A DNA stretch of 64,000 bases from Paratrimastix pyriformis (Eukaryota > Preaxostyla > Paratrimastigidae). Numbering within the stretch: the stretch's first letter is position 1; each line of letters begins with the position of its first letter. A program made the translations under genes and the position numbers. Below are positions 1-57,494 of this stretch, in pieces. The stretch is taken from contig JAPMOS010000059.1 in NCBI GenBank assembly GCA_027972325.1, positions 167,789 through 231,788 on the forward strand. The letters run 5' to 3'. A model generated the notes under the pieces. That model was not told where the DNA came from, did no database searches, and saw only the letters and a list, made by a program, of their open reading frames with translations.

Positions 1-3000
1 CAGCATCATCTCAGCATCCGTTCATCAGCGTCATCAAGTTCCACGTGCGAGATCGCCAATGTCATGGCAGGCCTCCAGTAGGTCCGCACGGAGAAGGGGA
101 AAAAAAACCATGATCCCATCAGCATCATCAGATCGCAGCATCGGCATCTCATCATTTCAACAGCATCATCATCATATCTTGGTCAGAGCAGCACCCATTC
201 ATCCTCCTCCCACCACCCACCGCCACTCCCCTTTCCAGGCCGTCCCGGAGCGCTTCAAATCGGTGCTCCAGGTCATTCGCCTCTGGCGCCACGAGTCGGC
301 CCGCGTCTACGCCGATCGGCTGGTCAGCCAGGACGAGCAGGCCCAGTACGACAAGCTGGTCGAGCAGGTCATGGACGCTGCCTTCACCGAGGTCTCCCGT
401 GAGCAGCGCGATGCCAAGCCGCTCCTCTTCGCCCCGTTCGCCCTGGGCGTGGCCTCGCGGGTGTACGAGGAGGTCCCCAACGGGTTCACCGGGCTCAAGG
501 GGCTGCTGGACGAGGCGCTGACCCAGTACAATGAGAGCAAGCCCGTGATGAACCTGGTGCTCTTCGAGGATGCCATGGCCCACATCTGCCGCATCAGCAG
601 GTCTGTCTGCCTGCCCGGCCGCGCTGATGGCACACAGATCGCCCACCCACCCCGCGCATGCGATTTTGCGACGCACTTGAAAATTCTCTTATCATCTCGA
701 AATCATTCACCATCTAATCATCATCATCATCATCATCATCATCATCATCCACTCATCGCCATCATTGTCATCACCATCATCGTCATCATCGTCATCATCG
801 TCATCCAATCATTATCATCATCCAATCATCATCATCGGCATCGGCATCCAATCATCATTCATCTCCTCTTCCCCACCCCCATCCCCCACCCCCCTCCCGC
901 CCATCACCAGAATCGTCGACCGCCCTCGAGGCAACGCGCTCCTGGTCGGTGTGGGTGGCTCGGGCAAGCAGTCTCTGGCCCGGCTGGCGGCCAACATCGC
1001 CGGCCACGAAGTCTTCCAGATCACCATCACCTCCACCTACGGTGTCGATGCCTTCAAGGAGGACCTCAAGAAGCTCTACTTCCTTGTCCGTTGCTGCTGT
1101 GTGCGTCTCTGGTGTCTCTCTGGTGTCTCTGTGTGTCTGTGTGTCTCTCTGGTGTCTCTGTGTGTCTGTGTGTCTGCGTCGATGCCTTCAAGGAGGATCT
1201 CAAGAAGCTCAACTTCCTTGTCTGTTGCTGTGTGTCTGTGTGTCTGTGTTGATGCCTTCAAAGAAGACCTCAAGAAGCTCTACTTCCTCGTCTGTTGTTG
1301 CTGCTGTGTGTGTCTGTGTGTCTGTGTGGGCGGGACAACTTTTGGGATCCGTAATTTAATCCACATTCGGTCTTGATAACATCAGTTCTGTGTCTGTGTC
1401 TACGTGGGTGCCCCCGCCCCTCGCAGGGCGATCGCTCATGTCTCTCTCCCGCCACCACCCACCACCCACCCCGCACCACCACGCAGGCCGGCGTCAACGA
1501 CAAGAAGATGATGTTCCTGTTCACAGACACCCAGATCACGGACGAGCACCTGCTGGTGTACATCAACGATGTTCTGTCCTCGGGGATCATCCCCGACCTG
1601 CTCGAGCAGGAAGACAAGGACAAGATTGTCGGCGGCATCCGGAACGCCGTCAAGGCCTGGCTGGTCGACTGCAAGGACAAGGAGCAGCGCGAGAACCAGA
1701 CCCGGGACGTGAAGGAGACCAAGTATGCCAATATGACGGCCGATTCGAAGGAGATTTGCATGGACTACTTCATCAACAGGGTCGGTCTTTAGCCCGCACC
1801 CACCCACCCACCCACCCACTCAATTTGTGTGTGGGGATCTGTGTGATGACGGCGCTCATTTCATCAACCGCCCGAGATCCAACTGCAGATTAGCAGCAGC
1901 AGCAGCAGCATCAACATCAACATCATCAACATCATCAACATCGCGTCCTCTCCGCCATTTAACTCACTCACCCACTCGCTCCCCCACACACACACACACA
2001 CACACGCACACACACCAACCAGGTGCGGGACAACCTCCACGTGGTGCTCTGCTTCTCGCCCGTCGGCGACAAATTCCGCGAGCGTGCCCGCAAGTTCCCC
2101 GCCCTGTTCAGCTGCACAAGCATCGACTGGTTCCACGGATGGCCCACTGAGGTCCGCCATCCCATGTTGTTCTTGATGATGATGATTGGATGATGATGAT
2201 GATTGGATGATGATGGGCGATGATGGGCGATGATGATGGGCAATGATGTTGATGTTGATGTTGATGTTGATGATGATGATGACGGGAGGATGATGCTTGG
2301 ATGATTGATGCCTGACGGGAGGGATGATGGGTGATGTTGATGATGACTGGTGATTGGATGGGACGGTCATTGGGTGGTCCGCCTCTGTTCTCACGCCCCT
2401 TCCCCCGCCACCCCCTTGCAGGCCCTGCTCTCCGTGGCACGGCGCTTCCTGTCGGATGTCGAGCTGGGCACCCCCGAAGTCTCCGAGTCCGTCGTTCAGT
2501 TCATGGTCCGTCCGATTGATATTACCCCTCCCTCTCCTCCTCCTCCTCCTCCTCCTCCTCCTCCTCCTCCTCCTCCTCCTCCTCGTCTCAACCACCCCCT
2601 ATCACCTCTCATTTCCGCTTTCCGATTTTTCCTTCACCCAGGCCCACGCCCACCTGATGGTCAACGAGGTCTCCAAGGAATTCCTGGCCACGGACCGCCG
2701 GTACAACTACACCACCCCCAAGTCCTACCTGGAGCTCATCTCGCTGTACAAGGCCATGTTGGCCAAGAAGCGTGCCGAGATTGCGGCCAAGATCGACCGG
2801 CTGGCCATGGGTCTGGTCAAACTCGAGGACACGGGCGCTCAGGTCTGCGACCAGGGGGGGGATAGCCACCAACAGCCCAGGGGGGATAGCCACCAACAGG
2901 GAGAGAGCCACCAACACCAGGCCCAGAGGGGGATAGTCACCCAGGGGGATAGCCACCCGGCCAGTTCACGTATCGCCGTTCCTCACGCCTCCTCTTCTTC

Positions 3001-56582: not shown

Positions 56583-57494
56583 TTAGAATTCTCCGCTGGA
56601 AAACTGCGGCTTCTCGCCGCTCCTTCTCGAGACGGTGCTCCACTGGCCCTTCCCGTCGCCCGTCTGCCAGGAGGGGTGCCGCCACCCACGTGAGAAACTG
56701 GAGGCGCCGAGGCGAGAGCAGACCGTCCAGGTGCCGCCCCACGAGACCCCACCGTCTTGGCCGCTGCTGGCGCCACCGCCGCCACTGACAAAGCCACCGC
56801 CACTTCCGCCGCCACTGACAAAGCCACCGCCACTTCCTCCGCCGCCGGAAGCAAATCCTCCGGAAGAGCTGCCCCCGGTCCCACCCGAGCTCACGGCTGC
56901 CCCACCCGTTCCTCCGGCGCGTCCGCTGCCCACCCAAACCCTAGAAACGAAAGGCGCGCGGGGTCAGTGAGAGTAACGAATGGGCCTCAGACCCCTGGCC
57001 CGTAGAGGATCCTCGCCGCCCACCAGATGAAGACCCGAATGACCCTGCACCGGCCCCTGCCCAGGGACCTATGCCCGACGCCAGCTGTGGCAGAGTCGAA
57101 AAGGGGGGGAGGACAGACCAGCCGGGGGAGGATAGTAACCTGCGCCGCCCCAAGACCAGGGGCCATACCCCCACGATGGATATCCGCCATAGCCACCCCA
57201 AGCCCAAGGCATGCCGAATCCCATTCCGTAGGCTGCCCAGGGGCCACCGTAATACATGGCATACTGTCAGCGGAGTATTTGTCGTTATGATGGACAGAGG
57301 TGGAAGTTCAAAGACTCAGACCTGCATCCAAGGAGGGTATTGCGGATACCCACCGAACTCAGGAGGCGGGGGTTGGAACCGAGGCGAGTTGCCCGAGGAG
57401 GAGGTGGCCTCACGGCCTTGACTGCCCGATGATGCAGCAGAAGCTGTGGCTTGAAGAACAACAAAAGGGTCATCGGCGACTCCTGGATCGCATC
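56583..57494 (-). CDS. Gly/Tyr-rich low-complexity protein (5' end missing)
   Basis: Minus-strand exons 57494-57322, 57263-57119, 57068-56993, 56940-56583 join in phase (donors GTCTGA, GTCTGT, GTCTGA). The translation starts with a Ser/Pro region (FQPPPPEFGGYPQYPPWMQ), then a Tyr/Trp/Gly-rich stretch (MYYGGPWAAYGMGFG, GGYGGYPSWGYG) and Gly/Ser repeats (SGGGFVSGGG). Composition resembles prion-like tails of RNA-binding proteins, but no RRM or other folded domain is in view. The start codon lies upstream of 57,494 and was not resolved. Tail-to-tail with kinesin-5. Confidence 0.5.

Follow-up and report, generated by a model that had tools for sequence, protein, structure and literature searches.

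What reads the 5′ splice site in a eukaryote whose introns begin with GTC? Few contacts in eukaryotes are as conserved as the pairing of ACUUAC in the U1 small nuclear RNA (snRNA) with GTRAGT donors. The initial annotation of a stretch of 64,000 nucleotides of the Paratrimastix pyriformis genome (contig JAPMOS010000059.1, C451:167789-231788 in our numbering, hereafter the window) nevertheless read GTCYGY donors in about 75 introns of some 15 genes on both strands and proposed that such donors are used genome-wide. At the level of sequence, the donors are indeed of this kind, the 5′ end of U1 is changed in the eight copies found, and U6, U5 and the one U2 copy that was read are conventional. 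We propose that the spliceosome here is, very probably, of the ordinary major (U2-type) kind, with a U1/5′ splice site code that has been swapped genome-wide by compensatory change.

Introns placed by homology

Introns were re-derived independently of the earlier intron list by spliced dynamic-programming alignment of genomic DNA with relatives of known structure, for three genes in the window (a dynein, VPS25 and a PMCA-type ATPase) and three outside it, elsewhere in the genome of 56.06 Mb and 495 contigs. Only GT..AG was demanded, and nothing after GT was scored. Under these terms 50 of 55 introns begin with GTC and none with GTRAG, against a background in which C follows 31.8% of the GT dinucleotides in the window, both strands counted. 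The GTCYGY donors of the initial annotation, and its statement that no placed intron uses GTRAGT, are thus reproduced. Likewise, a U12-type donor, ATATCC or GTATCC, occurs in none of the 55 placed introns, AT-AC introns not having been sought; the nearest approach is a single GTATCT, at a place where the PMCA-type gene aligns poorly.

The dynein gene (window 1-13600), aligned with DNAH17 (PDB chain 9fqr_I4), yields 24 introns, all 24 beginning with GTC, and with no donor rule at all GTC still begins 20 of 24. Three of these introns, at 1649, 7314 and 7721, look like alignment artefacts, and that at 6364 is doubtful; a few such placements apart, the earlier reading of GTC in all 23 dynein introns was essentially right. 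VPS25 has six introns, five with GTC and one with GTT, again as first annotated, and the identical six are placed with no donor rule. Similarly, the UPF1-like helicase outside the window (C441) shows GTC in six of six introns with or without a donor rule, and the AOAH-like gene (C168) shows it in nine of ten, or, with no donor rule, GTC in eight of nine and GT in eight of nine. The third outside gene, BRO1-like (C212), is weakly conserved, and both of its introns begin with GTC when GT..AG is imposed. With the PMCA-type ATPase, on the minus strand, GTC begins four of seven introns, and the three other donors (GTTCTT, GTATCT and GTGGTC) lie in very short or poorly aligned stretches. Finally, introns read by eye from conserved motifs gave GTTCCG, GTCTGT and GTTTGT in the U1-C gene and GTCTGC and GTCGGG in the SNRNP27K-family gene.

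A donor logo obtained without homology

A donor logo was also learnt by an unsupervised hidden-Markov gene-finder, with a donor model flat beyond GT, from the window and 16 further 10-kb stretches (224 kb in all). The model required GT and AG, and its initial codon statistics were taken from six dynein exons that had been delimited with GTC in mind; false introns occur among the short predictions. The 511 introns so obtained carry C at +3 (0.86), C (0.47) or T (0.34) at +4, G at +5 (0.73) and C (0.43) or T (0.38) at +6; at +2 the frequencies are T 0.86, C 0.11 and A 0.04. GTRAGT is absent from this set, which includes 48 introns with A or G as third base and 56 GC donors. At the other end of the introns, C precedes the terminal AG in 81%.

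The same logo is obtained from the 16 stretches alone, which lie on 11 other contigs (381 introns, +3 C 0.86), and when the gene-finder is started from GTRAGT it ends, in these stretches, on GTCYGY once more (394 introns, +3 C 0.88); as far as the genome was sampled, its wide scope is therefore as proposed. Two controls behaved differently. Sequence shuffled by an order-2 Markov model gave 22 introns without a GTCYGY logo, and reversed sequence gave 484 introns that did not converge to it (+3 C 0.53, +4 G 0.40, +5 G 0.36, +6 G 0.57). Counts of k-mers on both strands of the window agree: GTCTGT (62 vs 25.6 expected) and GTCCGT (49 vs 23.9) are over-represented, and the canonical GTAAGT (3 vs 4.3) and GTGAGT (21 vs 24.8) are not.

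A further set comprises the 330 non-window gene-finder introns of at least 45 nucleotides, with GTC in 276, GTR in 20, GTRAG in 2 and GC in 20 (310 GT in total), and with G as the last exon base in 207. The third base is C in 294, G in 18, T in 16 and A in 2, and two of the three U1-C introns have T there; the earlier claim that position 3 is fixed as C thus goes too far. The strongest donor signal in this set lies at +3 and +5, the positions facing U1 G6 and C4, with little at +7 and +8, while purines are rare at +4 (60 of 330) and +6 (53 of 330) in comparison with intron bodies (36.9%). The letters at +4 and +6 look independent in the 511-intron set, and a division into two donor classes was rejected on that ground.

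U1 genes

Nucleotides 5-6 of U1 are normally UU, and are pseudouridines in human and yeast. Our snRNA searches scored only the best candidates (41 of 992 first-look candidates for RF00003), and copy numbers are accordingly lower bounds. RF00003 matches eight U1 genes over the full model length (1-166) at 50.8 to 60.2 bits (E 3.7e-13 to 2.0e-10), all eight below the Rfam gathering cut-off of 69.5. In every one of them the 5′ end is AUACAGACC and not the canonical AUACUUACC, as part of a longer shared start, AUACAGACCUUG (8/8), and this end is complementary to AG/GUCUGU. Model positions 1 to 166 are all covered by the alignments; the two that are shown contain several non-standard pairs, and a four-way consensus fold is predicted. 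Upstream, the flanks diverge between copies, and AATTC before the start and CCCATAA at -59/-60 are kept in each.

A DNA search with one U1 body returned the same eight of eight. A promoter-anchored pattern that left nucleotides 5-6 free had nine matches. Eight of them are the U1 genes, every one with AG, and the ninth lacks a U1 body; this pattern search revealed no U1 gene with any other dinucleotide at nucleotides 5-6. That ninth site (L028), which reads ATACGGACCT, remained without an Rfam U1 match at E values as high as 10 and was set aside as a chance site.

Other spliceosomal RNAs and proteins

Reading the U1 5′ end together with the U6 ACAGA box had been proposed as a check at the outset, and the outcome is a changed U1 beside a conventional U6. 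The four U6 copies are identical and all carry the usual AUACAGAGA. The new U1 letters AUACAGA are, letter for letter, U6 nucleotides 37-43, the ACAGA region. U5 is represented by seven copies with a conventional loop, CGCCUUUUACUA, and U2 by ten matches, nine of them over the cut-off, with the usual GUAGUA region in the copy read. The CCCATAA element recurs at -66/-67 of all four U6 genes, at -52 to -54 of all seven U5 genes and before the U2 copy read, and at -52 to -67 (L001-L019, L054) it is likely a common snRNA promoter element. The U6 genes also have TTATAAGG or TTATCAGG near -30.

A degenerate DNA pattern built on the CDYCD motif led to the U1-C gene. The gene is split by introns, and its zinc-finger core, read by eye across them (MPKY-YCDYCD...THDSP-SVRKSH), looks conventional. 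The earlier suggestion was of a change in U1 or in the proteins that define the 5′ site. Its U1 part stands, with AUACAGACC in 8/8, and its protein part finds no counterpart in the U1-C zinc-finger stretch. The Pfam family PF06220 proved no route to U1-C: its only match (L051) has a WW-like stretch behind it and looks like WBP4/FBP21. A loss of METTL16 or SNRNP27K is not borne out, as both Pfam families are represented in the genome. There is one PF05971 match, over the cut-off at 64.5 bits, in the METTL16 family, which also includes other methyltransferases, and one PF08648 match, over the cut-off at 34.7 bits, in the SNRNP27K family, with MQLMGF and YRQYMNRKG kept.

Does the altered U1 fit the donors?

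Duplex energies favour the new letters. Over the 330 non-window introns the mean is -6.68 kcal/mol with AG at U1 nucleotides 5-6 and -2.84 with UU, and over the 21 dynein introns -8.53 and -4.36. Among the 16 dinucleotides at this site AG is second by duplex energy in both sets. Taken over U1 nucleotides 3-8, ACAGAC ranks 19 of 4096 (12 on the dynein set), and the canonical ACTTAC ranks 354 (241).

Several observations weigh against a swap of the code read by U1. GG at nucleotides 5-6 would pair better than AG (-9.27 vs -6.68; dynein -12.53 vs -8.53), because C is commoner than T at +4, and for the dynein introns a fixed-register count puts CG slightly above AG (18.71 vs 18.67); the U1 of this genome thus falls short of the optimal partner for these donors. 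At +4 there are 163 C and 107 T, and at +6 159 C and 118 T (n=330), although U1 and U6 both carry A there. Part of the donor logo may reflect base composition: the reversed control drifts to C at +3, so some of the C at that position is compositional, and intron bodies are 41% C, which may explain the C excess at +4 and +6. Alternatively, that excess could reflect N6-methyladenosine (m6A) on U6 that makes U less favourable, or a modified A able to accommodate C. In addition, with no donor rule the BRO1-like alignment collapses (GT in 0/9) and the PMCA-type ATPase has GT in only 3/6; run in this way, these two alignments were judged too weak for intron placement and dropped.

How far can such observations carry a different explanation? 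The donor logo might be set mainly by U6, proteins and GC-rich mutation pressure, with the U1 change a by-product and its pairing minor. Over +2 to +6, GUCUGU is the complement of the ACAGA box in the unchanged U6; the share of C at +4 and +6 is roughly that of the background; and the advantage of GG over AG speaks for the same view. We nevertheless consider this improbable. The U1 change is present in all eight copies found despite their diverged flanks, which argues that it is maintained by selection or by recent conversion, and the second rank of AG was obtained with donors that had been found without reference to U1.

The remaining explanations have very little to recommend them. Homology placement has a few bases' play, and one could imagine ordinary GTRAGT introns lying a few bases off, but we give this almost no credence. 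When only GTRAG is allowed, alignment scores drop from 4501 to 1491 (dynein), 1267 to 798 (PMCA), 672 to 157 (AOAH), 329 to 99 (helicase) and 299 to 116 (VPS25), and only the weak BRO1-like score changes little (173 to 137); for dynein the GTC-only score equals that for any GT (4501), followed by 3676 without GTC and 3363 with GTR. Furthermore, a single canonical-like pentamer (GTATG, at the 7480 donor) occurs from -12 to +16 nucleotides around the 21 dynein donors, and U1 itself is without ACUUAC. A separate or non-spliceosomal mechanism of removal, such as has been considered for Amoebophrya or for the nonconventional introns of euglenozoans, has a precedent in the unusual donors of other protists, which two reports tie to unknown mechanisms (PMC12621601, PMC7789003), but is scarcely conceivable for introns that are GT..AG, prefer C before AG and are complementary to their own U1 and U6, in a genome with several copies each of U1, U2, U5 and U6. 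Finally, a hidden second U1 (e.g. AUACGGACC) reading GUCCGU donors as a second class would profit from the superior pairing of GG, but it is absent from the eight copies, the sole ATACGGACCT match has no U1 body, and the independence of +4 and +6 speaks against two classes; we regard it as highly implausible.

A proposed mechanism

In the compensatory swap that we favour, U1 nucleotides 5-6 would have gone from UU to AG, giving 5′-AUACAGACCU and turning AUACUUA into AUACAGA, and the donors would have moved from AG/GURAGU to AG/GUCYGY. The pairing would comprise G-1:C9, G+1:C8, U+2:A7, C+3:G6 and G+5:C4, with Y+4 opposite A5 and Y+6 opposite A3. The donor would then be passed from U1 to the U6 ACAGA box, and since AUACAGA occurs in both U1 and U6, both RNAs would read the same donor letters. 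Such compensatory co-evolution was probably drawn toward a U6-optimal donor; how the steps were ordered, what selected for them and whether modification plays any role are matters of inference.

We put forward only tentatively, as a possibility with the balance against it, that U1 was rewritten as a copy of the U6 ACAGA region, with a single donor sequence serving both RNAs, and that modified adenosines in U1 and U6 do the reading of Y+4 and Y+6. Inosine, able to accept either C or U, would be one candidate; another would be m6A put on U1 by METTL16, an enzyme whose U6 target and the new U1 have UACAGA in common. If true, a harmonised U1/U6 reading would be a natural, genome-wide reassignment of the splicing code, comparable to codon reassignment.

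Introns and other features of the window

Table 1. Introns of the three aligned window genes, with donor sequences. Spliced alignments were made to DNAH17 (dynein; GT..AG only), to VPS25 (letters as PDB 3cuq_C; rows unchanged with no donor rule) and to PMCA2 (PDB 9gsd_A; GT..AG only).
Gene	Position in window	Strand	Donor	Remark
Dynein (DNAH17-like)	601..910	+	gcag/GTCTGTCTGC	
Dynein	1086..1486	+	GTCCGTTGCT	
Dynein	1781..2022	+	GTCGGTCTTT	
Dynein	2152..2421	+	GTCCGCCATC	
Dynein	2506..2641	+	GTCCGTCCGA	
Dynein	2843..3027	+	GTCTGCGACC	
Dynein	3216..3795	+	GTCCGTGCTG	
Dynein	3911..4058	+	GTCCGTTGCC	
Dynein	4236..4968	+	GTCCCTGAAA	less certain; covers a spot with 35 reference residues missing and may hide an exon
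Dynein	5377..5635	+	GTCGGTGGGG	start moves 6 nucleotides with no donor rule
Dynein	5711..5874	+	GTCTGCATTC	
Dynein	6364..6754	+	GTCGACATTG	exact start doubtful; gene-finder exon end 6372
Dynein	6959..7259	+	GTCCGACCCC	
Dynein	7480..7599	+	GTCCGTATGA	
Dynein	8203..8877	+	GTCCGTGACA	
Dynein	9241..9673	+	GTCTGTTCAC	
Dynein	9869..10152	+	GTCCGCTGGT	gene-finder placement differs
Dynein	10289..10675	+	GTCCGTACCC	
Dynein	10897..11255	+	GTCCGTGGTT	
Dynein	11594..11862	+	GTCCGTCTTC	
Dynein	12357..12440	+	GTCCGTGGTG	
VPS25, intron 1	44149..44208	+	GTCAGTGTTT	
VPS25, intron 2	44300..44354	+	GTCTGTGTCT	
VPS25, intron 3	44410..44458	+	GTCTGTGACA	
VPS25, intron 4	44513..44555	+	GTCGGCCTTT	
VPS25, intron 5	44645..44705	+	GTCTGTTCTC	
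VPS25, intron 6	44782..44832	+	GTTTGCGCAC	T at +3
PMCA-type ATPase	40564..40616	-	GTCCGTCGGG	
PMCA-type ATPase	37813..38119	-	GTCTGCCCGC	
PMCA-type ATPase	38631..38671	-	GTCGGCTTCG	41 nucleotides; less certain

Inside the dynein intron 1086-1486, at window 1181-1300, lie two more degenerate tandem copies of the preceding exon end and donor (GTCTGTTG), which are possible decoy or alternative donors. Introns with long (CAT)n/(ATG)n microsatellite tracts were seen by eye in window 1-3000 and in L051.

The window ends in a TTAGGG-like stretch that holds 27 exact TTAGGG units at 63810-63971 and is probably telomeric repeat. Two inverted arms of 304 nucleotides (99%) and 268 nucleotides (97%), in 27124-27787 and 29276-29951, cover a near-identical pair of predicted genes on opposite strands, P-loop GTPase-like by eye. 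Elsewhere in the genome, an 18S ribosomal RNA (rRNA) copy (L022) is, by eye, broken by unrelated sequence after its 5′ part, from about 1300 onward; another (L023, 488-1617) matches the full 18S model in only 1130 nucleotides; and a predicted protein on the minus strand of L041 resembles, by eye, a mobile-element reverse transcriptase. Protein matches of this genome tend toward animal chains in the PDB, a leaning that is no guide to its taxonomic group.

Comparison with known systems

What distinguishes this system from those already described? With the canonical U2-type system it shares GT..AG introns, U1 nucleotides 8-9 opposite +1/-1, and a like U6, U5 and U2 (in the copy read). It differs in U1 nucleotides 5-6, which are AG here and UU there, and in the donor, GTCYGY in place of GTRAGT.

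A further likeness is to the Saccharomycotina, in which, according to the accessible part of PMC10581693, donors switched from +4A to +4U. There, as here, the donor shifted toward better pairing with the U6 ACAGA box. In those yeasts, however, the U1 candidates, which came from 227 of 230 genomes and from 9 of 10 outgroups, are given as carrying an invariant ACUUACC. The switch there accompanied loss of METTL16 or SNRNP27K, whereas P. pyriformis has a changed U1 and contains genes of both families. The same text proposes a change of U1 nucleotide 5 to A as a possible compensation, one that its authors did not find in their yeasts. The canonical +3R/+4A suits U1 and leaves non-Watson-Crick contacts with the U6 box, and the yeast +4U pairs with U6 and mismatches U1 (see PMC10581693). 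The donor described here can satisfy both U1 and U6.

Other departures differ in the partner that changed or in their extent, as far as the accessible portions of the sources go. In Cyanidioschyzon merolae an snRNA contacting the donor is also altered, but it is the U6 ACAGA box and not U1 (cited in PMC10581693). The diplonemid S. specki likewise has an altered U1 5′ end, a C-stretch in an alternative U1, but this stands beside a U1 with a conserved 5′ end, and the part of the report available to us describes no new genome-wide donor code (PMC12621601). The tunicates Fritillaria and Oikopleura depart from the usual donors on a large scale too, through non-GT/AG introns, but their snRNAs are highly conserved, unlike the U1 studied here, and changes in U2AF and m6A are proposed (PMC13326754). 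Amoebophrya is also a protist rich in unusual donors; it differs in that, in the text accessible to us, U1 was not detected and the non-canonical introns have no clear splicing signature (PMC7789003). Euglenozoan nonconventional introns, again, have no conserved borders and no complementarity to U1, in contrast to the conserved GTCYGY donors complementary to U1 described here. Among the literature matches listed, which cover few subscription papers, there was no report of a U1 with AUACAGACC or of a genome-wide GTC donor.

In practical terms, gene-finders tuned to GTRAGT will fail in this genome, and the curated Rfam threshold for U1 misses all eight copies. If both partners changed together, the code can be swapped even in an intron-rich organism, and one can test how changes in very large numbers of introns and in a multi-copy RNA go together, and why +3 and +4 normally favour U1 over U6. 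What appears to be new, judged from these genes and RNAs, is that the spliceosome looks conventional and its recognition code does not.

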